Shown: positions 7,734 to 63,888 of the stretch, piece after piece
How the letters are laid out: every line of letters starts with the position of its first letter
How positions within the stretch are numbered: position 1 is the stretch's first letter
Assembly (NCBI RefSeq): GCF_042453785.1
Contig: NC_091674.1
Coordinates: 26,701,001-26,765,000 of the forward strand
Direction: 5' to 3'
Length of the DNA stretch: 64,000 bases
From: Malus domestica
Taxonomy: Eukaryota; Streptophyta; Magnoliopsida; Rosales; Rosaceae
The notes under the pieces: generated by a model
What the model saw: only the letters and a program-made list of their open reading frames with translations
Told to the model about the DNA's origin: nothing
The model's database searches: none
Made by a program: the position numbers and the translations under genes

Positions 7734-8363
7734 GATAGACTCTATCTTAATTTTCCAATAACAATGATAATTAACCTAATATTGAAAATGCTACAAGTGG
7801 TCATAGTCGCATTTAGCTGTGACGAGAACTCAATATGACCCTTTTATAAAACACTAATACAGAATATAAAAAAAAAAAGTTTGAAAAATATGAATCTGAA
7901 ATAAAAATAGTGACTAGAACAATGTGTTTTTCGCTTTGCATTCCAATTCTTCTCCTTACAATTTAGGTAAATTTACTACATCACATTGGCTGTAAAAAAA
8001 ATAAATAAATAAAATAAAATAAAAAACTCAAAACTAATTTGAAAACAAATAAACAAAATACAATAATCGGAGGTATTTGATCTGTGAATGCAAAATATAA
8101 ACTTGTTTCTTTTTTGAAAACAACCCTTGCAACAGAGACGCAGATACTTTTAAAATGTATTTAATTAGCATGAAAAGTGGACGGTGGAAGCGCGGGTTTC
8201 TCAGATAAGCAAGCAGTCAAAAGGTCAAGAGTCAGCAAATCAGCCCGCCTCTGCGGACACCTTAAATTACATATCGTTTTGGATCAAACAAAATCCAACG
8301 GATCCACGAGAACCAGAATGGGTCCTACCCAATTCAGATCCCGCCACGTACTCTTTTTTAATA

Positions 8364-36499: not shown

Positions 36500-38557
36500 T
36501 TACCGAACGCTTTGTTTGCGCCGAACTGCAGTACTCATCCATCTCGGTGCGCTAGTTTCACCGAAGTTATGGAGAAATTTGATGAGGGAGGACGCTTCAT
36601 TGATCGAGTGAGATGTTCCATCAGTCAAGAGCGAAAACAGTCTAGGCATTAGAGATGGTTCCGTCGCCAAAACAGCAACAACTTCCGCCCCGCCATTGAT
36701 GCACAAAGACAGCAATGTTGAAACACAATACTTTTTCGCTCTTTGGGATGTCGAAGTTTGAAGAATGCGGATGATCAAATGCAGATCAATGGCGTAGAGG
36801 ATTTCATGTGATCCTACCGCATTCTCGGCCAAAATTGCGAGAATTGCTAATGCATCATCAACAAGCTGATCAGGGTTTTCTGATGATGAAGATATTATGT
36901 CAATTAGCAATGGAACAATGCCTGCGTCCAGCACTTTTTGTAGATTCTTGGCACGAAGGAGCAGCCCGAGAATTGCAACCACGGAGTTCTTTTTGCCACA
37001 CGTTGTTCCTTCCCTGATCAGCTCCACAAGAGCTGGGATGGCCTCAGGTAATTCTCCAATTAGTTTTCGATACTGGCTTGTCAAAGAGAGGTGAAATATC
37101 GTTGCAGCTGCGCATTGCCGGGCTTCTAAACTCAACCCATTTTTAAGAACAGCAACAACTGATGGTAGTCCTCCCCATGACATTATCAATTTCATTCCGC
37201 TTGCGTATTTCGCGAGCTTCAACAAGGCTGCGATTGCATTCACTTGCGTGGATGCATCCGCGGAATTCAGTAGTTTCAGCAGAGGAGGGATGGAGCCAGC
37301 CTTGATAAAACAAGACCTATTGAAAATGTTTGATTTGGCTAGCAGCCGAATCTCATAAGCAGCCTTGTTTTTCTGTTCGCTTGTTCCGCAAGCAACCCTT
37401 CCGCTGAGAAATCTCGAGAGAAACTTCATTGCTTGTTTAGCAACGGGGCTACCATGCGCGACCGTTTGATCTTTGTCGGAGCTTTGCGTTCCTGGCCTGC
37501 CAAGAGAAACGCCATTGTATTCACAAAGATTTTTTAGTAGCTTGCGAAGAATCGAATTCGGTACCAACTCTGTGTTTGTGATCACCTCTCCTGTTTTGGG
37601 GCAGAGCATGTTTCCGGCGCGGAGCCATTTCTGAATCGAACTTCGATCGTATGTCTGACCTGTAGATACAGTCACCGGATCAAGCATTAGCTCAAGAGAA
37701 ATCGGGCACTTGAAATCTTCAGGGTTTAAGCAACGAAACATCTCCACGTTGCACCTGGAATCGATTTGATTCGCAGCGTTTTGATGATCCAATGTTTCGA
37801 AGATCACTCCCCTGCTGTAGCTCAGGAACCCCACCAAGCTACTGAGAAAAGGAACCTCCCTCTCGTCGCGATCGGAACGCTTGAAAGCGATTTCTTCTTC
37901 CAAGAATTTGATCTCCATGTTGCAGTCGCTCCATCTTTTGACTCGAAGGTAATCGAGGACCCGCTTTACGGCATTCAAATCGGGCTCGATTCCCCTTTCG
38001 AATTGGCTCAGAATCGCAAGCAATCGTTTCGAAGCCAATTCGTCATCCGCTTCGAGCTCGATTTTGACCTTCCACGATTGCTTCGACACCAATTCAACCA
38101 ATTCCTTAACTTCATCGCCAACATCGATCAATTTCAACGGAAAAACATCAAGAGCCGTCGCCAAAGCTCGAATCAGCAGCCGAAATTGGGTAGCAAGAAA
38201 CTCGCATTTCGTCAGCATCAAAATCCGACCGCCTTCTCTCGTGCAGTCTTCCAACAAAAACCGGATTTTTTGGAAGACGAAATGAAGCTCGGAGAAGCAG
38301 AGGACAGCGGAAGATTTCGAAAGAGCCGAATTGCACTCGCATGCCTCCTCAAAGAACATGAGAAGAACACGAACTAGGCGAATTGCTTCCCGGCTATTCT
38401 TCCGTTGCGTCGCGAAGCATTTCGAGTGGAAATTGCAGATTGTGTGGGAGAGAGGGATCAGAGAGTCGAGAAGGGTCTCCGGAGAAATACATTCGCAAGG
38501 GCGCACCGCCGGAAACATGAGTATCCGGCGGTCGTCGCTATCAAATCTCCAATTCAT
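36500..38557 (-). CDS. U-box/ARM E3 ubiquitin ligase, PUB18/19-like
   Basis: A single exon of 685 residues, close to Arabidopsis PUB19 (686) and PUB18 (697). The start MNWRFDSDDRRILMFPAVRP was chosen because the conserved DRRIL-FPAVxPCE-ISPETLL opening follows at once. An in-frame ATG at 38620 would add 21 residues and cannot be excluded. Order of parts: a U-box N-terminal helical domain (UND) to about residue 265, the U-box at about 278-350 (DFKCPISLELMLDPVTVSTG, YDRSSIQKWL), then ARM repeats from about 395 to the end. The E2-contacting residues of the U-box (Cys-Pro-Ile and Pro-Val-Thr) are intact. PUB18/19 act redundantly in Arabidopsis to dampen ABA-triggered stomatal closure and drought response. 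Upstream sequence has an ABRE cluster that fits ABA control. Confidence 0.93.
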   Translation of the reverse strand: MNWRFDSDDRRILMFPAVRPCECISPETLLDSLIPLSHTICNFHSKCFATQRKNSREAIRLVRVLLMFFEEACECNSALSKSSAVLCFSELHFVFQKIRFLLEDCTREGGRILMLTKCEFLATQFRLLIRALATALDVFPLKLIDVGDEVKELVELVSKQSWKVKIELEADDELASKRLLAILSQFERGIEPDLNAVKRVLDYLRVKRWSDCNMEIKFLEEEIAFKRSDRDEREVPFLSSLVGFLSYSRGVIFETLDHQNAANQIDSRCNVEMFRCLNPEDFKCPISLELMLDPVTVSTGQTYDRSSIQKWLRAGNMLCPKTGEVITNTELVPNSILRKLLKNLCEYNGVSLGRPGTQSSDKDQTVAHGSPVAKQAMKFLSRFLSGRVACGTSEQKNKAAYEIRLLAKSNIFNRSCFIKAGSIPPLLKLLNSADASTQVNAIAALLKLAKYASGMKLIMSWGGLPSVVAVLKNGLSLEARQCAAATIFHLSLTSQYRKLIGELPEAIPALVELIREGTTCGKKNSVVAILGLLLRAKNLQKVLDAGIVPLLIDIISSSSENPDQLVDDALAILAILAENAVGSHEILYAIDLHLIIRILQTSTSQRAKKYCVSTLLSLCINGGAEVVAVLATEPSLMPRLFSLLTDGTSHSINEASSLIKFLHNFGETSAPRWMSTAVRRKQSVR

Positions 38558-38704
38558 TGATACAATTGTGTGTGGAGAAACAGAGTGGCTCTGTTTTTGT
38601 ACATAAAATTGGTGTAGCATTCGACTCAGAAGAGAAATGGTTCTCTGTTTTTGCTCTCTGTTTGTTTTCGGAATTAATGGGAGGAGCAGCGGCAAAAGTT
38701 GCAA

Positions 38705-38712
38705 CAATATAG
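38705..38712 (-). promoter_or_regulatory. TATA-like box of PUB gene
   Basis: On the minus strand CTATATTG lies about 150 bp upstream of the chosen ATG and about 90 bp upstream of the alternative one, a reasonable core promoter position. Confidence 0.5.
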
Positions 38713-38724
38713 GGAGATAACGGG

Positions 38725-38919
38725 CACGTGGCGGGATCCTAGTAGTCCACGTTCCTAAGTTGATTAGGATTAAAAACATAACTGGATAGGCTACCTGGAC
38801 ACGTGGGGAGGTGGGGTTCGCTAGTGATCGTGGGGACCACAAGCCGACTGGGACACGTGGACTCAGCTTTTGGGCGACGTGTTGCGGTGGCAATGGGGCA
38901 CCCAGAGGAACACGCGTGT
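38725..38919. promoter_or_regulatory. ABRE/G-box cluster upstream of PUB gene
   Basis: Three CACGTGG-type ABRE cores stand at 38725-38732 (CACGTGGC), 38800-38807 (CACGTGGG) and 38854-38860 (CACGTGG). A CE3-like coupling element ACGCGTGT is at 38912-38919. The whole array is 168-362 bp upstream of the start codon. Multiple ABREs, or an ABRE with a CE, are needed for strong ABA response (established for plant promoters). The array sits immediately upstream of the TATA-like box. Confidence 0.75.
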
Positions 38920-38989
38920 GTTTTCCTGTGTTTTGGGTCAATTTTAATTAGAGACAAAAGTCGATTGACTAAACAGAAAATTAGAGTTT

Positions 38990-45384: not shown

Positions 45385-47374
45385 ATCCACCCACAGAGCT
45401 AGCTGCTGAGAAGAATACCTCTTATCTTTTGAGTTTTGATTCCAATCTTATAGAAAAACAGAGTCCTCTGTCTTCTGCCTCAAAAGTTTCAAGGAAGACA
45501 AATAGCGCTCTCTCTCTCTCTCTCTCTCTCTAACCCACTAGACGGCACAGACAAAGAGCACTGTATTTTTAAATTTAAATTGTTATAGTTTTTAAATTTA
45601 AATAATAAATTATGTTTGATCTTATAGTCTTTTGATTTTTGGTTAAAGATGATTTTTTGTGATAGGGCTAAAACAAGCCGTATAGCCATTTGGTCCTTGG
45701 TTGGAGATGAAAGCAAATATGATCATATATTGTTCATTAAAATATTAATTTCTTAAAGGACCAGAGGGTTAAAACGAATTTTCTAACCAGCCTTCGGTTA
45801 AGGATAATCTTAGTATAACACCAAAATCCAAATGAATTTAAAAATTAAATATTATAAAACAGCAGAGAATATTACTAAAAAGCTAAACGAATAAAGAGTA
45901 TGCTGTGAATTTTCAGTTAAACTTTTATAATTGGCCTAATTTTTTAGGCATTAGATTTTAAATTTTTTTTATTCAAATTTTTATGTATTTTAACCACGTG
46001 CACGACATATAGCAATTGTTTGTTAAAAAAGAAAGATAATTTTTTTCCTAGTATGGACACCATTTCTTCTTCTTTTCTTCTGTTAGTTTATTCCGTACAC
46101 TTTTGTTTGAATTTTAGAATTTAAGGAAAATTTGACTAATTGTAAAAAGTTCATAAATGTAATGAGTTAAAATTCAAGTTCAGTGGGAAATCGACAGACA
46201 CTCCAAGTTCGGTGGAAAAATCTGCCTAACCCTCTATCAACTAAACAAACCAGAAACTATCTATTCCATCAGAAAATAATCGATTATGCTCCGATTCTTA
46301 CACACTAATTTACAAATGAAAAATCTCTTACGAGTTTATTTAATATTCTTCTCATCACCAACCCCTATAATTTTATTGATATCTTTCCCACATCACAAAA
46401 TTTATGGGTCCAAACGTTATTAAGCTTTACAAGCACTGCTATTCTCTTGGTTTCATCGTCATCTTGGAGTATGTTTTTGAATGGAAAAATAGATGTCAAC
46501 TTTTAAGTTGTGTTTGGATTTTTTTTATGTCAGCGACACTAAATTTATATTATTCATTGAAGTGGATTCGAATTTAGATTCATATGGGAAACACAATGTC
46601 TTAGCCAATTTGATAAAGCTTTAGGTATGCAAGGTGTTCAAATTAGTCGTAGAAGATTAGTTATGAATGAAACTTATCATTTCTACTCACAAAAAATAAT
46701 AGGATTTGTGTTGAAGAATACAAATCTTCCATTAGAGATTTTAAAAATTAAACATGGCTTATATTGATTTTGTGATAAAATTATTACACTTATCGCCTTG
46801 CGCATGTAGTAAAATGTAAGTTGTGAGACAATATTTATGTTGTTAGTAGTGGATTTATGGTTCGACTTTTTAAAAGACTAACATATAAAATTAAAATTTG
46901 AACGTTGTCATTAATTTCTTGCTTCATCATACATTTTATTTTATCATCAATTTCTTGTCACAACACCTTTGATATTATTTTATATTAAAATTTGTGTTGC
47001 TAGTAGTGGGTTGATAGTTCTTTTTAAAAGATTAACATTTAAAATTAAAATTTGAACGTTGTCATTAATTTCTTGCTTCATCATACATATTATTTTATCA
47101 TCAATTTCTTGTCCCAACACCTTCGATATTATTTATATTAGCACATTTGAAAGCAAAATCGGCCGCAATTGTGTAATCTTTTTAGGGCACGACACCTTAG
47201 GAATTAATACAATATGAATATGGTTAAGTATCTTCAGCAATCTGACCGAATGGAAAAAGTTCCTAATCTACACTAATAGGTAAAAACTAGGAACGCAATA
47301 AATTAAAAAAAAGAAGATAGTTTTAACAACCAAAGCAATCTACCACTTATAAAGACGTTTAAAATGATAGCATT
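45385..47374. other. ALDH2 promoter side and spacer
   Basis: A (CT)12 run at 45508-45531 lies about 125 bp upstream of the ALDH2 ATG and would be a GA run in its leader or core promoter. A tandem duplication of about 155 bp stands at 46838-46980 and 46993-47133 (shared words AAATTTGAACGTTGTCATT and TTTATCATCAATTTCTTGTC). No gene was recognised. Confidence 0.6.
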
Positions 47375-47708
47375 TGTTAATGCACAAAGTCGGAGGTCTT
47401 GGTACAACGTAAATCCGACCGTGAATCTGCATGAAATGTAAATAACACAAGATGTATCGTGGTTCACCCAAGGTTTGGGCTACGTCCACACTGATTGTAT
47501 TATATTTCTCTATTGAAGAGGGAGAGAGAGCTTAGAGCTTAGGGGTGTGAGGAGGCTTAGGGTTTGTGAGGGTGAGGAAACCTTTTTATAGAATAAGGGC
47601 TCCTCCCCTAATTACATATTTGCCCATTCCTTTATTACATAATTACATTTAAGTCCCCTGAGTATTTATACGAGGTCTAAATACGAGGCCCTAAATATGG
47701 TATAAACA
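47375..47708 (-). repeat. 3' LTR of the gene-carrying element
   Basis: The 334-bp left repeat has ends TGTTAATGCACAAAG and TATAAACA. It shares the words GGAGGTCTTGGTACAACG, GATGTATCGTGGTTCACC and GGCTACGTCCACACT with the right repeat. Confidence 0.88.
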
Positions 47709-47927
47709 GTAGTCCCCCAAGTCTTCAGTCAAGAGAGTCTTTTTGGCTGGAGACTTAAAATTCAGTTCATGTGTGGGCCGAAGTAACTAGATGATGTCTT
47801 GAACTGATGCTCGATATGAGGCAGTGCTCAATCTGAAATAACGGTTAACTAGAAGTAGCACACGCTGCGAGACTGCTCGGCTCGTGGCTTATGTTGCCTT
47901 GGTTGGCTCGGCTTGCAGCATTTGAAG

Positions 47928-48390
47928 GTGAAGGAGTCCATTTTATAGAATAAGGGCTCGCTTCTCAATCCATGAATGATGGGCTAGAGTTGATGCTCTC
48001 TAATGATGGTGAGGGAGTCTCTTTTATAGAATAAGGGCTCGCTCCTCAATACATGAGTGATGGGTTATGAGTGATGCTCGCAGCGAGGCGGTTGCTCAGC
48101 TGGCGGCGTTGCTCTCTAATGATGGTAAGGGAGTCCCTTTTATAAAATAAGGGTTTGCTCCTCAATACATGAATAATGGGTTAGAGTTGATGCTCTCTAA
48201 TGATGGTGAGGGAGTCCCTTTTATAAAATAAGGGCTCGTTCCTCAATACATAAATGATGGGCTAGAGTTGATGCTCGCGACGAGGCGGTTGCTCAGTAGG
48301 CGGTGATGCTCTCTAATGGTGGTGAGGGAGTCCCTTTTATAGAATAGGGGCTCGCTCCTTAATACATAAATAATGGGTTAAGTCCTTCAA
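47928..48390. repeat. LTR-derived tandem repeat array
   Basis: Five units of 81 or about 117 bp, each with GGTGAGGGAGTCCCTTTTAT, AATAAGGG and CTCCTCAATACAT. The long units add GAGGCGGTTGCTCAG. The core resembles the LTR's own segment GGTGAGG...TTTTATAGAATAAGGG, so the array probably grew from an LTR piece. Confidence 0.85.
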
Positions 48391-48544
48391 GTATTTTTCA
48401 TGAGGCCCAGTTGAGGCCCAATATATGGTACATAATGTAGTCCCCCAAGTCTTCGGTCAATAGAGTCTGTTGGCTGGAAACTTCAAATTGAATCCATGTA
48501 TGGGCCAAAGTGGTGGTTGTTCAGAGGCGGTATTTGTATACCCT

Positions 48545-48905
48545 GCACTGAAGCTTTGTAGGTGAAGCTTTGCAAGTGAAGCTTTGAAGCTAGAGCTCTG
48601 TAAATGAAGCTTTCGAAGCTGGAGCTTTTGTAAATGAAGCTTTTGAAGCTAAAACTCTGTAAATGAAGCTTTTGAAGCTAGAGCTCTGTAAATGACGCTT
48701 TTGAAGTTGATTGACATGAGTGATGCTCATGAATGTTTATGTTGATTGACATGAGTGATGCTCATGGATGTTGTTATGAGTGATGCTCATGGATGTTGTC
48801 ATGAGTGATGCTCATGAATGTTGACATAAATGTTTATGTATGATTGTCATGAGTGATGCTCATGAATGTTTATGTATGAATGACATGAGTAGTGCTCATG
48901 TATAA
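48545..48905. repeat. two short tandem repeat blocks
   Basis: At 48545-48710 variants of GCTCTGTAAATGAAGCTTTT repeat. At 48715-48905 the palindromic word CATGAGTGATGCTCATG repeats about seven times with spacer ATGTT. Confidence 0.85.
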
Positions 48906-49135
48906 TTTGGAAGTATTGGGCGTACTTTTGATCACCTGGTTGGTGGTAATAGCGGCAGGTTGCTGAATAATTTTGGAGTACTGGGCATACTTTTAATCAC
49001 CTGGTTGGTGGTAATAGCGGCATGTTGCCGAATAATTGTGGAGTACTGGGCGTACTTTTGATCACTTGGTTGGTGGTAATAGCGGCAGGTTGTCGAATAA
49101 TTGTGGAGTACTGGGCGTACTTTTGATCACCTGGT
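48905..49135. repeat. 65-bp tandem repeat, 3.5 units
   Basis: Units start GGAGTACTGGGCGTACTTTT, continue TGATCACCTGGTTGGTGG, and end near CGAATAATTGT. Substitutions between units are few. Confidence 0.9.
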
Positions 49136-49635
49136 TTGAGCTATTTTGGGCTTATGGGCCTTCGCCCTCTACACAACATTCCAGCCCATTTTTTTTGGGC
49201 TTTTGCCCTTTTTTTTTTTTTTTTGGTATTATTACCTTCTGATGGGGTTTATACAGATGTCTCCGAAAGATAAAATAAATTACATCATTCAGAAATAACA
49301 AAAGTAAATCATATATGGGATGTTTATTCCTCACTTTTGCTTTCTCTTTTCTGTTTTGTTCCTCACTGCTTTCCTGCTTTCCTTTTGCTTTCTCTTTTCC
49401 ACTGCTTTCCTGATTTCTTGAGTATGAGGGCCTGGCTCGAGCACATTCTCACCACATTCGAGACATAGCAGATAATCCCTTAGAATATATGCACAATGTC
49501 ACACACAACTTTTAAACTTTAATCACCGACAGAAGCACTTGAGTACGAGATAATCATGCGAAGATGGCTAAGGTAGATGAGGCCCGCGCGGACCCCATTG
49601 GAAACCACCTCTCAGATTCAATTTCCTCGTGTGCT

Positions 49636-50007
49636 TCACGTCTGGTTCAATTTCTTCTTTTCCAAAATTTGCTTCACAGATTCAACAAACTTAGTGCGCC
49701 CATTCATCAACTTCGGCGTCTCTTCCAGCAGAGACTCGAGATGTTTGTCAATGGAAGACACTTCATTTCGAATTGCGACCAACACGTCGGAAGCAGCAAT
49801 GAAAGCTCGGTAATTGGCCACTGCCATCTCCTGCATTTGCCTCTGTATTCGTTCCGCATCGACCCGGAGAAGCTCCGGTTCCTTATGAAGGCGATCGAGG
49901 GTGAAAGAAAGGAGCTCGGAGACGTAGGGTTGCTGGGAGACGGAGGCCAACAGGAGGAGGTTTGCCACTGCGGATGAGTCGTCGGCAGCATTTCCAGACT
50001 CCATCAT
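49636..50007 (-). pseudogene. COG8 first-exon fragment captured in LTR element
   Basis: An open stretch of 123 codons: after a short unmatched start it reads [75 protein letters not shown], and ends KLNQT. This is the N-terminus of COG8 (Dor1 family), a subunit of the conserved oligomeric Golgi tethering complex. Full COG8 is several hundred residues longer; here it stops at KLNQT followed by TGA. The bases after CAGAC are GTGAAG, a fair splice donor, which suggests that unspliced genomic DNA was captured and the rest of the gene left behind. It has no chance of making a working COG8. It is on the sense strand of the host element, and the frame is still open. Confidence 0.8.
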
Positions 50008-50282
50008 CGGATGGTGGAGCTCTGAACTGGATGGAGGTTTCGGATTTCAGACCCTTCGGTTAGGGGTTTGGACGTATCGGAGGGAAATGCTGATTTTCAG
50101 ATATGTTGCTGCTGCTATGCAGATTTTCTATTCCGTTCCCACTGCTTCTGTCGATGCGGATTTCGGCATCCATATAGTACGTCCTTAGTGGGACCGCCTC
50201 AAGTTAGTCCACTTTAGACGATGACGATGACGGAACTGGAAGGAAGAGGTCAGAGATGGCGACTGCTTCGCCCACTGGTTCT

Positions 50283-50610
50283 GAAATTCATCTCTTCTTG
50301 CTGATTGTTCTGAAACTTGTTGGTGGCTTGTTCCAACTCATTCAAAACCTCAATTTCGCTGTACAAATTCGAAGTTGTACTCATATACCTCTCCATTTTT
50401 CTCACCATGCTCTCCATGTCTTTTACTAAAAACCCTAACTCCTTCATATGGATAACCCCATTAACGAGGTCGGCATAGACGTGCTCGAACCCCTGTAGAG
50501 CAGGCTCGGCGCACCGCTTCCCGAGCCTCCCCACGATGACAGCGACCCCGTTCAGCTCCTCCAGTTTCGTGACTCGGACTCCGATGAGTTGGCGGATCGA
50601 GTCAGCAACA
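50283..50610 (-). pseudogene. DUF668/PSK-SIMULATOR-like gene fragment captured in LTR element
   Basis: Minus-strand translation gives KLEELNGVAVIVGRLGKRCA, EPALQGFEHVYADLVNGV, LGFLVKDMESMVRKMERYM, and LYSEIEVLNELEQATNKFQ. This matches the region between DUF3475 and DUF668 in plant PSK SIMULATOR-type proteins (family form: SRLGKKCxEPALQGFEHVY, NLYxEMEVLNELEQA). Only about 110 residues are present and the frame runs into unrelated sequence on both sides. The source gene would be elsewhere in the genome. Further minus-strand frames up to 50990 are open but were not recognised. Confidence 0.75.
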
Positions 50611-51186
50611 GAGACGTCGAGCAGAGGATGGGCGAATGAGGAACTTTTGGCGAACGGGTTTCTGGTCTTGGCGAACAGGTTTCTGGTCCTGGTGAACAGA
50701 ATTGTTAGGTCAACGTGTCAGGAGAGCGAGGTCCGCGAGAGGATAACCGTCAACTACTAGCATGGTTGCCGTTGATTCTAGTGAGGACACTTCTGCCGAG
50801 ATCCGTCGCAGCCTCCACTCCTTCACGCTCCCCTACCATCTTCCTTGTCTTCGCGCGACTACCAGGCTCGCTCCTACTTCCTACCTCCGTAGGAATTGGG
50901 AACTGGCAGGTGAGATGAATTTGGAGGTGACTCGATCTCAAAATCGCCTTGGACACGAAGTCCCCCACCATGTTTTGGATCGCTTGAGGAGAGAAAAAAG
51001 CGAGAGCCAGACAGAAAGAGAAAAAGTTTAGTTTAGAGAGGGATATCTTCTGAATCTGGAGTTTTTTTATAGAGAAAGCAAGAGGGATGGACGAACGGTG
51101 GAGTGTGGTGAGGTTCTGGGTTTCTGTCGATTCATGGTGGATGTGAAAAAATTGAAAGATAACCGACATAACTTTTCGTATCGATT

Positions 51187-51204
51187 CCCACAAATGGCGC
51201 CAAA
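51187..51204 (-). other. primer-binding site of the gene-carrying element
   Basis: The minus strand reads TTTGGCGCCATTTGTGGG right after the right LTR. TGGCGCC matches tRNA-Asp perfectly; the following bases match only in part. Confidence 0.65.
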
Positions 51205-51542
51205 TGTTGATGCATAAAACCGGAGGTCTTGGTACAACGTAAATCCGACCGTGAATCTGCATGAAATGTGAATAACACAAGATGTATCGTGGTTCACCCC
51301 AAGGTTTGGGCTACGTCCACACTAATTATATTATATTTCTCTCTTGAAGAGGGAGAGAGAGAGCTTAGAGCTTAGGGGGTGTGAGGAGGCTTAGGGTTTG
51401 TGAGGGTGAGGGGGCCCTTTTATAGAATAAGGGCTCCTCCTCTAATTACATATTTGCCCCTTCCTTTATTACATAATTGCATTTAAGTCCCCCGAGTATT
51501 TATACAAGGTCTAAATACGAGGCCCTAAATATGGTATAAACA
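51205..51542 (-). repeat. 5' LTR of the gene-carrying element
   Basis: The 338-bp right repeat starts TGTTGATGCATAAAACC and ends TATAAACA, directly followed by the target duplication GCATT. A TATA-like run CTTTTATAGAATAAGGG lies within it. Confidence 0.88.
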
Positions 51543-51572
51543 GCATTATTATGAGAATAATTTGTTTTTTTT

Positions 51573-52397
51573 GGGTAAAATACTATTTACTACCCTTATT
51601 CCCCTTCTTCTCCTTCTTCCTTCTTCTTCCTCCGAATTTGAGGAAGATTTTTTTTTTCTTCCTCCTTCTTCTCCTTCTTCTCCTTCTTCCTTTCTCCTTC
51701 TTCCTTTCTCCTTCTTCCTTCCCCTTCTTCTCCTTCTTCCTTCTTCTTCCTCCGAATCTGGAGAAGATGAAGGTTTTTTTTTTTTTCTTCCTTCTTCTTC
51801 TTCCTTCTTCTTCCTTCCTCCTTCTTCCTTCCCCTTCTTCTCCTTCTTCCTTCTTCCTTCTTCCTTCTTCTTCATCTTCCTCAAAAAAAAAAAAAAAAAA
51901 ACCTTCATCTTCCCCAGATTCGGAGGAAGAAGAAGAAGGAATAAGGAGAAGAAGGAAGAAAAAAAAAGAAAAAAAAAGGTTGTAGTCGGAGGAAGAAGAA
52001 GAAGAAGAAAGAATAAGAAAGAAGAAGGAGGAAGAAGGAAGAAGAAAAAAAAAAACTTCCCCAGGTTCGGAGGAAGAAGAAGAAGGAGAAGGAGAAGGAA
52101 GAAGAAGGAATAAGGAGAAGAAGGGGAAGGAAAAAGGAGGAAGGAAGAAAAGAAAAAAAGTTGCAAAAGAAGGAAGAAAAGAAAAAAAAGAAAAAAAAAT
52201 GTGGATGACACGTGGCGCCCAGTCATTGTCTACGTGGGCGTCACGTCACAATTAACGGTAGATTTAACAGTTTGACTAACATATGTATGAGACTGTCCCA
52301 AAATTTACACTTTAGGTATGAATCTGAAATGAAAAAAAATTGATGTACTAAATGTTGAAAACCACAAAACATGAGGGTAGTAAACAGTCTTTTACCC
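51573..52397. mobile_element. 825-bp foldback element with purine/pyrimidine arms
   Basis: Ends GGGTAAAATACTATTTACTA and (reverse complement of the right end) GGGTAAAAGACTGTTTACTA form inverted termini. Inside, 51590-51880 is a CTT/CCT-rich pyrimidine arm and 51935-52190 a GAA/GGA-rich purine arm, with a poly-A stretch at the turn. The single-copy words CCGAATCTGGAGAAGATGAA and CTTCCCCAGATTCGGAGG pair across the turn. Long frames on both strands are a by-product of low complexity. A target duplication is not clear. Confidence 0.75.
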
Positions 52398-62000: not shown

Positions 62001-63888
62001 CTAATCTGCTGAAAAATCAGGTTCAATTGGCTTGAACAATTTTTTGGGCATACTAGAGCTGGTTTCATCATGTTGAATAACCGATGCCACCTTCTGAATC
62101 CCTCTTCTGGTGGTTGCAGCAAATTTGGAAGCCAATATCGCCGGCCCAAGCGGAATATTCTGCTGCCTATTCGCCTCGGACGATGACCTCTCAGCACCTC
62201 CTATACCATCATAATCTCTACTAGTTCCTACTCTAGATTCATGGCCATTGCCAAGCTCTTCTTGCTCCAAAACATGTGCGTAATAGTACTCCTCCTCTAT
62301 TGCCAACTCCATTGCCAACTTTCTCTTCCTAAACCTTCTCCAAGCAACTTGTATAAAACAAGCCCCCCAAGTTCTCCACTGGTGTGAATAGTACCGAAAA
62401 GCATGCTGCAGTCTTTTGCTGTGAAGGCGCTTGAATTGAGTGGCAACGAACTTGAGGTCTTCAGCTCTCAGTGCAAATGCCTCAACTTCGGTTAGGGACC
62501 TCACCGTACGCGTCGAGCATGGAAGGTTGAGGCTTGATGTAGGCATCAAGGCCCATGTGAGCAACTCTTCGCCGCAGAAATCGCCCGCCCTGAGGGTAGT
62601 TGAGTTGTAGAACCCTGTCCTTCCACCATCAGTTGTGGAGCTCTCAAGTTGCCCTCTGATGATGAAAAGCATCTCATTCACAGGATCACCTTCCCTGATG
62701 ATGTATGTGTTCCTGGTATTCAGGGATGACTCGAGACGTTCACATATGGCGTCTAGAAGCTGATCGTCCATTTGTGCGAAAAAGGGTACCTGAGAATTGA
62801 AGAAATTATACCACCAGTAAACGATCAGTGCCAACAACTTATAAACTCAGCTGCATTGCGCTTATCAGCAAGCGTCAGCATGTGAGCAATGGTTTAGATT
62901 GACAGTCTCCCAAACATAATGCTTACACGGCGAACAAGGGCAAGGCATAAATGCCTTTGGATCTGGCGGCGGAGATCCGCAGGCAAGGATTGCAAAATGT
63001 TTTTCTCATCTACACCTCTTGTGGCAATCCACTTATATTGAACAAACCGACGAACACGCTCTTGCAGCTCCGCAGGGAGCTGACGGTGCCTCATCCACTC
63101 CTCTGTGTCTCTCCTTTTTACCCGCCATTCTTCAAGTCTAATCGTTGCAGATTGCAGATAGGTCTTGAAGAAATCAGAAAATTTATAAAAATAAGTAACC
63201 AATGTATCAAAAATTCAACCATGTGAGGGAAAAATTAGACCTAGATTAATAAATTAAGACATTTTCTTGTATGTAGTAGATGCCTTGAGCAAATTATACC
63301 TGCATCTGGCTCATGAGATGTGAGAAGAGAACTAGACCAAGAACAGCAATGAGAATGCAAAATGAGGTTTCACTGATAAAAGTGCTTGTCTTAATATCTT
63401 GTCCGTATGAACTGCGTATCGCGAAATGAGTACAAGACATGAATTAGCACAAATAGCTTGCTTAATTTTTAACTGTTTTCATTCCTTGACGGACAAGTAA
63501 CTATTATTATATGATCCAAATGTAACAGCAGAAAAATGCATTTTGGCTTGAGCTAGTAACAGCAAAGCATACCATAAATTTCTCATACCCCACCAAAGGC
63601 AGTAGAAATATTTTTCAATGATGTATGCAGAAGCAACCTCATTAGTGAAAGCCTCCGCAAACATTCCAAACTCAAATTCGTCCTTACCAGCTGCATCACA
63701 ACTAGTCTGAACTTTTGTGATTTGCAGATAAAGTTTTCGTTCGGGGTTATCGGCACTGCCACAATCCAGAAACGAAATTTTACAGGATGGAGAATGTGTG
63801 TTATTCACCTCCTTTTTACATTCTCCCGTCCAGCACTCGTACTGCCGTCTAATGGACATCACATACCATGAAGCTCCAACAATCTGCA
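62001..63888 (-). CDS. cyclic nucleotide-gated ion channel (CNGC), 3' part
   Basis: Four exons on the minus strand, 63573-63888, 63300-63411, 62927-63163 and 62001-62789, phases consistent. The 5' exons lie beyond the window. The visible part starts in TM5 (VQIVGASWYVMSIRRQYECW). It passes the pore helix and filter region (KYFYCLWWGMRNLCSYGQD) and TM6 (FCILIAVLGLVLFSHLMSQM). Next come the C-linker (TYLQSATIRLEEWRVKRRD), the cyclic-nucleotide-binding domain with the phosphate-binding cassette (AGDFCGEELLTWAL), and a calmodulin-binding IQ motif (FIQVAWRRFRKRK). The end is PIEPDFSAD. Plant CNGCs are calcium-permeable plasma-membrane or nuclear-envelope channels gated by cNMP and calmodulin. The CNBD and C-terminus look most like group III (CNGC14-18), but the exact member is not certain. 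NLCSYG carries Cys where NLSS is usual. Confidence 0.92.

Follow-up and report, generated by a model that had tools for sequence, protein, structure and literature searches.

An apple LTR retrotransposon family with common ends and differing middles that hold, at least in part, sense-oriented pieces of host genes

We analysed a stretch of 64,000 nucleotides of apple (Malus domestica) DNA (the window, C14:26701001-26765000, the C numbers being those of the contigs) and found on its minus strand a long terminal repeat (LTR) element that has no coding genes of its own and carries, in sense orientation, a copy of part of the spliced messenger RNA (mRNA) of the host gene COG8 together with pieces of other host genes. 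It belongs to a family whose copies have common ends and mostly differ in the stretch between them, and it seems probable that this is a helper-dependent, gypsy-like LTR family that picks up host mRNA through template switching and then reshuffles the pieces. A first-pass annotation had proposed that an LTR element captured host genes here: one element with unrelated genes in sense did emerge, while the genomic exon that it took as the source gave way to spliced RNA, and the pairing of two genes looks like a recombination of two lineages.

The COG8 sequence occupies two overlapping features:

49638..50122, minus strand: COG8 mRNA piece with 5' untranslated region (5'UTR), exons 1 and 2 and part of exon 3; parent C15:3749111-3749793
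49636..50007, minus strand: 123-codon open frame (with stop) within the COG8 piece

The frame matches the Pfam family Dor1 (E 2.6e-21) and is 88% identical to COG8 of Malus baccata (P0114); a plasmid megablast, Rfam and a PDB sequence search with the piece yielded nothing useful. When the genome (19 contigs, 651 Mb) was searched as DNA with window 49560-50260, the C15 parent was returned as three blocks, against window 50122-49881, 49883-49729 and 49729-49638 (90, 96 and 92% identity), and a C8 locus, presumably the homoeologous gene, matched in the same three-block way (86, 91 and 89%). The C15 blocks are separated by two 99-bp GT-AG introns (GTTCTC..TTTTAG and GTAGTA..TGGTAG), both of which are missing from the window element and from the family copy on C1. 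Because both parent introns are absent from the element, the piece is a copy of a spliced mRNA, in sense orientation. The intron sites were checked independently at the protein level: with 113 COG8 database matches aligned to rose COG8, 65 end at residue 95 and a further 12 at residue 43, which are those sites. The captured piece begins 115 bp 5' of the ATG and ends within exon 3, so that it is not the first exon that the first-pass annotation had seen, cut at its genomic splice donor; that candidate was rejected, the parent reading CAGACGT/TGCTAGCC at this point, inside exon 3, and the apparent donor being the join of the COG8 piece to the next stretch.

The element around this piece is built as follows:

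51543..51547, no strand: target-site duplication GCATT, right copy
51205..51542, minus strand: 5' LTR (TGTTTATACC...GCATCAACA), 338 bp
51130..51204, minus strand: sequence like a primer-binding site (PBS), TTTGGCGCCATTTGTGGG, plus leader, common to the family copies compared, which start to diverge after about here
47709..49363, minus strand: family 3' half, an A-tract and tandem repeats of 81/197, 29, 25-36 and 65 bp
47709..47723, minus strand: polypurine tract adjoining the 3' LTR, GACTTGGGGGACTAC, read directly
47375..47708, minus strand: 3' LTR, 334 bp
47370..47374, no strand: target-site duplication GCATT, left copy

A TG..CA-ended LTR pair, a 5-bp target duplication, a PBS (recognised by sequence; no tRNA was compared) and a purine tract identify it as an LTR retrotransposon, and the structure, already described as complete in the first pass, was borne out in the window. 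The window's two LTRs differ at 17 of 334 aligned sites (Kimura two-parameter distance, K2P, 0.053). The PBS-like TTTGGCGCCATTTGTGGG stands directly after the 5' LTR; TTTGGCGCCGTCTGTGGG is found at that site in 12 of 16 other two-LTR copies, and we take the PBS type to be that of the Retand/Tat elements. Gag and pol had been reported as missing, and Pfam indeed detected no retroelement domain in the five frames of the window element that were searched (four on the minus strand, two of them overlapping, and one on the plus strand). The start of the 3' half differs by copy (about 49165-49363). Two further observations concern this structure: window 48359-48511, inside the element, repeats the region of the 3' LTR end and purine tract (47632-47784) at 77% identity, and family copies match both stretches alike; and a polypurine/polypyrimidine block with many inverted repeats adjoins the element at 51594-52186.

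The family was sampled through 20 of 42 LTR matches, each fetched with about 10 kb, 21 further rows being left unfetched. The sample is not random: 40 of 3,707 first-look candidates were scored, and those taken are the ones with the closest LTR match. Sixteen of the 20 fetched loci have two LTRs with the window LTR as query and entered the copy comparison, while L027, L031, L032 and L043, which gave no clean LTR pair with that query, were left out. These 16 copies are 3.4-6.3 kb long, and 14 of them have a perfect 5-bp duplication, for which chance would allow about 0.001 per copy under assumed base frequencies. The window's LTR ends are present in 15 of the 16 (in L044 the match to the 5' LTR begins at LTR position 34), and the copies have in common the LTRs, the PBS, a leader of about 80 bp and the 3' half, tandem repeats included.

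What lies between leader and 3' half is, in 15 of the 16 copies, a middle of 1.4-2.4 kb (the first unmatched stretch) essentially unlike that of the window. A middle is defined as the part unmatched by the window's element, so its difference from the window is partly by construction; in a separate comparison of middle with middle (L042 taken to 4.3 kb, both L029 and L042 having extra unmatched stretches) the largest pairwise overlap among the 15 was 265 bp, and overlap with the window's middle did not exceed 119 bp. L044 alone has a strong overlap with the window's middle (879 bp). The GC content of the middles is 0.43-0.50. K2P between paired LTRs ranges from 0 to 0.134 among the 16 copies, L025 having a value of 0 and five others values of about 0.006 or less, and the near-zero values in these six copies therefore indicate young insertions and recent activity. 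As a side observation, L025 has a third LTR-like copy (oriented position 7862-8243, 79% identity) between its two identical LTRs.

The window's own middle holds more than COG8:

50565..50719, minus strand: stretch 71% and 70% like C3:1821241 and C11:2483212; possibly a further host piece
50291..50568, minus strand: DUF3475/DUF668 (PSK-SIMULATOR-type) gene piece; C16:19393249-19393526 (94%), C13:19076149-19076426 (89%)
50124..50298, minus strand: stretch present, whole or partial, in family copies without a DUF668 or COG8 match (L017, L018, L021)
49549..49610, minus strand: 62-bp gene piece, GGSQWAPRGPHLPQPSSYDYP reading frame, sense; C15:6133660 (92%), C8:9024217 (87%)

The DUF668 piece has as its best protein match a Malus baccata DUF3475/DUF668 protein (P0234, E 1.6e-44), and it is 94% identical to its C16 parent over 278 bp, with abrupt divergence at both edges; Pfam gave no DUF668 match for it, and its identity comes from the protein and DNA matches instead. 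The identities of the COG8 and DUF668 fragments and their place on the element's sense strand were thus correctly called in the first pass, and aligning the pieces to their parents, as proposed there, led to C15 for COG8 and to C16 for DUF668. The count of two host genes was too low: a third piece lies at 49549-49610 (its parent gene presumably encodes a KH-type protein), and 50565-50719, whose match on C3 shows no clear coding frame, is possibly a fourth.

A search of the genome for copies with the same fragments, also proposed at that stage, did find them. COG8 recurs in the C1 copy (L010/L044) and, with its last 77 bp only, in the C7 copy (L014); DUF668 recurs in the C2 copy (L016), joined directly to the 3' half and without COG8, and L044 has COG8 without DUF668. 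Among the copies seen, only that of the window has both, and it is therefore best read not as one double capture, but as a recombinant of DUF668-bearing and COG8-bearing lineages, joined at 50122/50124. The COG8 sequences of the window and the C1 copy have 13 derived changes in common, besides 18 private to the window and 17 private to C1; from the shared changes it follows that there was one capture, which then spread.

Host sequence is present in other middles as well. A Pfam search of stop-to-stop frames from the 15 other middles (E<=0.001) found host domains in 7 of 31 sense frames vs. none of 20 antisense frames, five of the seven passing the curated cut-off, and no retroelement domain in any of these 51 frames. 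The domains are AAA (L025), Biotin_lipoyl (L028), HD-ZIP_N (L029), ANTH and RING-H2 (L034), kinase (L036) and DUF642 (L041), the last two below the curated cut-off; they are spread over 6 of the 15 middles, all in sense.

Three middles were mapped to the genome: those of the window, L034 and L025. The L034 middle contains a piece of an ANTH gene (query 191-918; C16 at 93 and 89%, second locus on C13) that lacks 97 bp, followed by a piece of a RING gene (query 895-1512; C11 at 96 and 93%; the frame there is intronless and starts MDIDTHKRTHYALNG) that lacks about 145 coding bp and is related in its 3' part to loci on C15 (88%) and C8 (86%). The two meet at ACTCCATGGATAT (13 nt), where the ANTH parent on C16 reads ACTGCATGGATAT and the RING parent on C11 reads exactly ACTCCATGGATAT, so that 12 of the 13 positions are common to both parents. 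The join is what a template switch at short homology would leave, and join and internal losses together fit a reverse transcriptase that jumps. The losses themselves, at positions 760 (97 bp) and about 1092 (about 145 bp), may stem from such jumps, from subsequent deletions or from cryptic splicing; we rejected a lost intron as the source of the ANTH gap, the missing 97 bp being coding in the C16 parent (they start with GT, end with AG and lie between two CAGs), and we also rejected the C11 locus as another family copy, as it is an intronless RING gene with the approximately 145 bp that L034 lacks. The AAA region of L025 matches C7 (90%) and C1 (87%) and is followed by three short blocks that match pairs of loci elsewhere. 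Much of this middle is also found at C2:27761990, C3:4124987-4126336 and C15:46357352, which are apparently other family copies, and cargo is therefore inherited as well as replaced.

A reasonable candidate for a helper, judged from shared ends, lies within L031: an element in the opposite direction with a 516-bp LTR, gag, RVT_1 and RNase H (Pfam), which shares with the family its LTR ends, an LTR-internal motif, the TTTGGCGCCGTCTGTGGGAAACGACAC site and the 27 nt that start at the PBS (L025 being identical there).

Common ends, differing middles, sense host pieces in the window and six other copies, the splicing of COG8, joins that fall within exons, the one join at shared sequence, and spread with reshuffling are all observed; mRNA packaging, template switching during reverse transcription and helper supply in trans are what we infer. 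The family would retain no more than its transcription, priming and integration signals and the repeat-rich 3' half; the slot between leader and 3' half holds varying middles made at least partly of sense host gene pieces. Host mRNAs would be packaged with element RNA in particles from a related Ty3/gypsy-like gag-pol element, where reverse transcriptase would leave the element RNA for one or more mRNAs and then return to it; subsequent switches between co-packaged element RNAs would reshuffle the pieces, the window copy arising in this way from DUF668-bearing and COG8-bearing lineages, and the captured pieces would then drift neutrally. A wider claim, on which we are evenly divided, is that this is a large family with a free slot for cargo, that almost all its insertions consist of spliced host mRNA pieces newly strung together or reshuffled, and that gypsy-helper particles serve as a standing exon-shuffling machine, making new mosaic loci out of the messages of many genes as often as Pack-MULEs or Helitrons do at the DNA level.

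Several points weigh against collection of mRNA by template switching. Intron loss is established for one captured gene, COG8; the ANTH and RING pieces of L034 offer no intron to test and thus have no bearing on splicing. Genome mapping covers three middles, in one of which (L025) the short blocks may match further family copies rather than parents. In nine of the 15 middles Pfam recognised no domain among the frames searched. The two strands were not compared evenly, the sense frames scanned being more numerous and longer, and ten sense frames were chosen after their translations had been read; without them the result is 4 of 21 in sense vs. 0 of 20 in antisense. Counted over the middles, frames of at least 60 aa number 131 in sense and 100 in antisense, those of at least 120 aa 25 and 13. 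Runs of at least ten A occur in 6 of 17 middles (that of L042 being the family's own A-tract) and runs of at least ten T in 1, which makes poly(A) only suggestive. Finally, the helper is assigned by shared ends, and its second LTR lies outside the fetched locus.

The alternative that survives best, though we regard it as unlikely, is capture at the DNA level, by which genomic gene fragments would be copied in during break repair or by gene conversion, a route that has been proposed for Pack-MULEs and Helitrons, the DNA transposons that capture genomic DNA, introns included. The pieces are short and several per element, the C3 match of 50565-50719 lacks a clear coding frame and the L034 pieces hold no testable intron, all of which would suit such a process; for COG8, however, it is contradicted by the absence of both introns, and all ten pieces of determinable strand are in sense, although the frames searched were mostly sense ones. 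Slightly less likely still are processed pseudogenes made by long interspersed nuclear elements (LINEs), inserted into existing elements and then carried along. The spliced state of the COG8 piece would agree with these, as would two sense poly(A) runs that are possibly the tails of captured mRNAs, one in the C1 copy (L044, 18 A at element position 627, immediately ahead of the COG8 piece) and one in L026 (23 A at element position 1708); against them, the slot is at about one place in the 16 copies compared and the ANTH and RING pieces of L034 abut at shared sequence (no search for internal target duplications was made).

The fate of the captured COG8 frame bears on whether the host has retained it. 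The 123-aa COG8-like frame is listed as a Malus domestica hypothetical protein in several apple assemblies (99% in P0003, 97% in P0004), and a shorter, frame-changing version, P0017, exists in other apple assemblies. In a neutrality test the observed mutation types were simulated on the COG8 parent: 32% of simulated copies keep an open frame, and the C1 copy has a stop. These results, together with P0017, led us to discard the open frame as evidence of function. Changes of the C>T or G>A type make up 25 of 36 in the window and 24 of 35 in C1, as expected of methylated silent DNA. One mild result goes against neutrality, which does not predict it: codon changes in the window are 14 synonymous and 11 non-synonymous vs. 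8.5 and 13.8 expected (P 0.017), whereas those of the C1 copy (8 and 18 vs. 9.0 and 15.9 expected) show no synonymous excess. We read the frame as probably in neutral decay; that the element is a host-retained chimeric gene yielding a useful COG8-derived protein or RNA, which the open, annotated frame and the synonymous excess in the window would favour, is most improbable in the face of the simulations, the C1 stop, P0017 and the bias in the changes. Separately, a predicted protein of Cichorium intybus (P0001, 196 aa) has two COG8 N-terminal parts in tandem. Elsewhere in the window there are an 815-aa open frame for a U-box/ARM-repeat protein (36503-38947, minus strand) and a 281-aa frame with a cyclic-nucleotide-binding domain (62004-62846, minus strand).

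Capture of host genes by plant LTR elements is usually told as a series of single events, and in Bs1 of maize the captured pieces are reportedly without introns. As far as the available part of its description goes, Bs1 is an LTR element carrying pieces of three host genes, and one such element turned into a chimeric gene (PMC13317346). The apple element is likewise an LTR element with several unrelated host gene pieces, and the window shows the features of a Bs1-type gene transducer, host coding pieces inside and, for COG8, an origin from spliced RNA; unlike Bs1, within what that part of the source relates, the apple family has copies with different middles in one slot. Host genes within LTR elements number 672 in rice and 1,343 in sorghum in the portion of the survey at hand (PMC3726574), but these are counts of annotated genes, and a swappable, mosaic interior is not described in that portion.

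The family also resembles several groups that are defined by structure. Large retrotransposon derivatives (LARDs) are, like it, LTR elements without coding genes, and are defined in the accessible text by a large conserved non-coding interior (PMC4668562); the apple middles are unconserved, with 15 of 16 copies unlike the window. Retand/Tat Ty3/gypsy elements have tandem repeats before the 3' LTR, according to the excerpt consulted (PMC11963269), as the apple element does, though it lacks gag-pol. The TGTT and AACA subfamilies are also LTR elements of apple and its relatives, described in the available passages as Copia-like or terminal-repeat retrotransposons in miniature (TRIMs) with atypical ends (PMC5659011); the apple family has TG..CA ends, and its copies of 3.4-6.3 kb are not the very short elements that TRIMs are. 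With Pack-MULEs and gene-carrying Helitrons it has in common that copies of one family can hold different host pieces, and it departs from them in its LTRs and, for COG8, in the use of spliced RNA (inverted-repeat or Helitron ends were not searched for separately). ONSEN of Arabidopsis is comparable in that family members recombine during transposition, and its abstract mentions no host mRNA (PMC5668417).

Single LTR elements with host genes are known; we found no description, in the open-access literature, of an LTR family with mostly differing middles made of host gene pieces. A recently active family with a different middle in almost every copy examined would make the rate of capture, the junctions, the source messages and the effect on parent genes measurable, and would account for some short apple "hypothetical proteins," such as the 123-aa COG8-like one.

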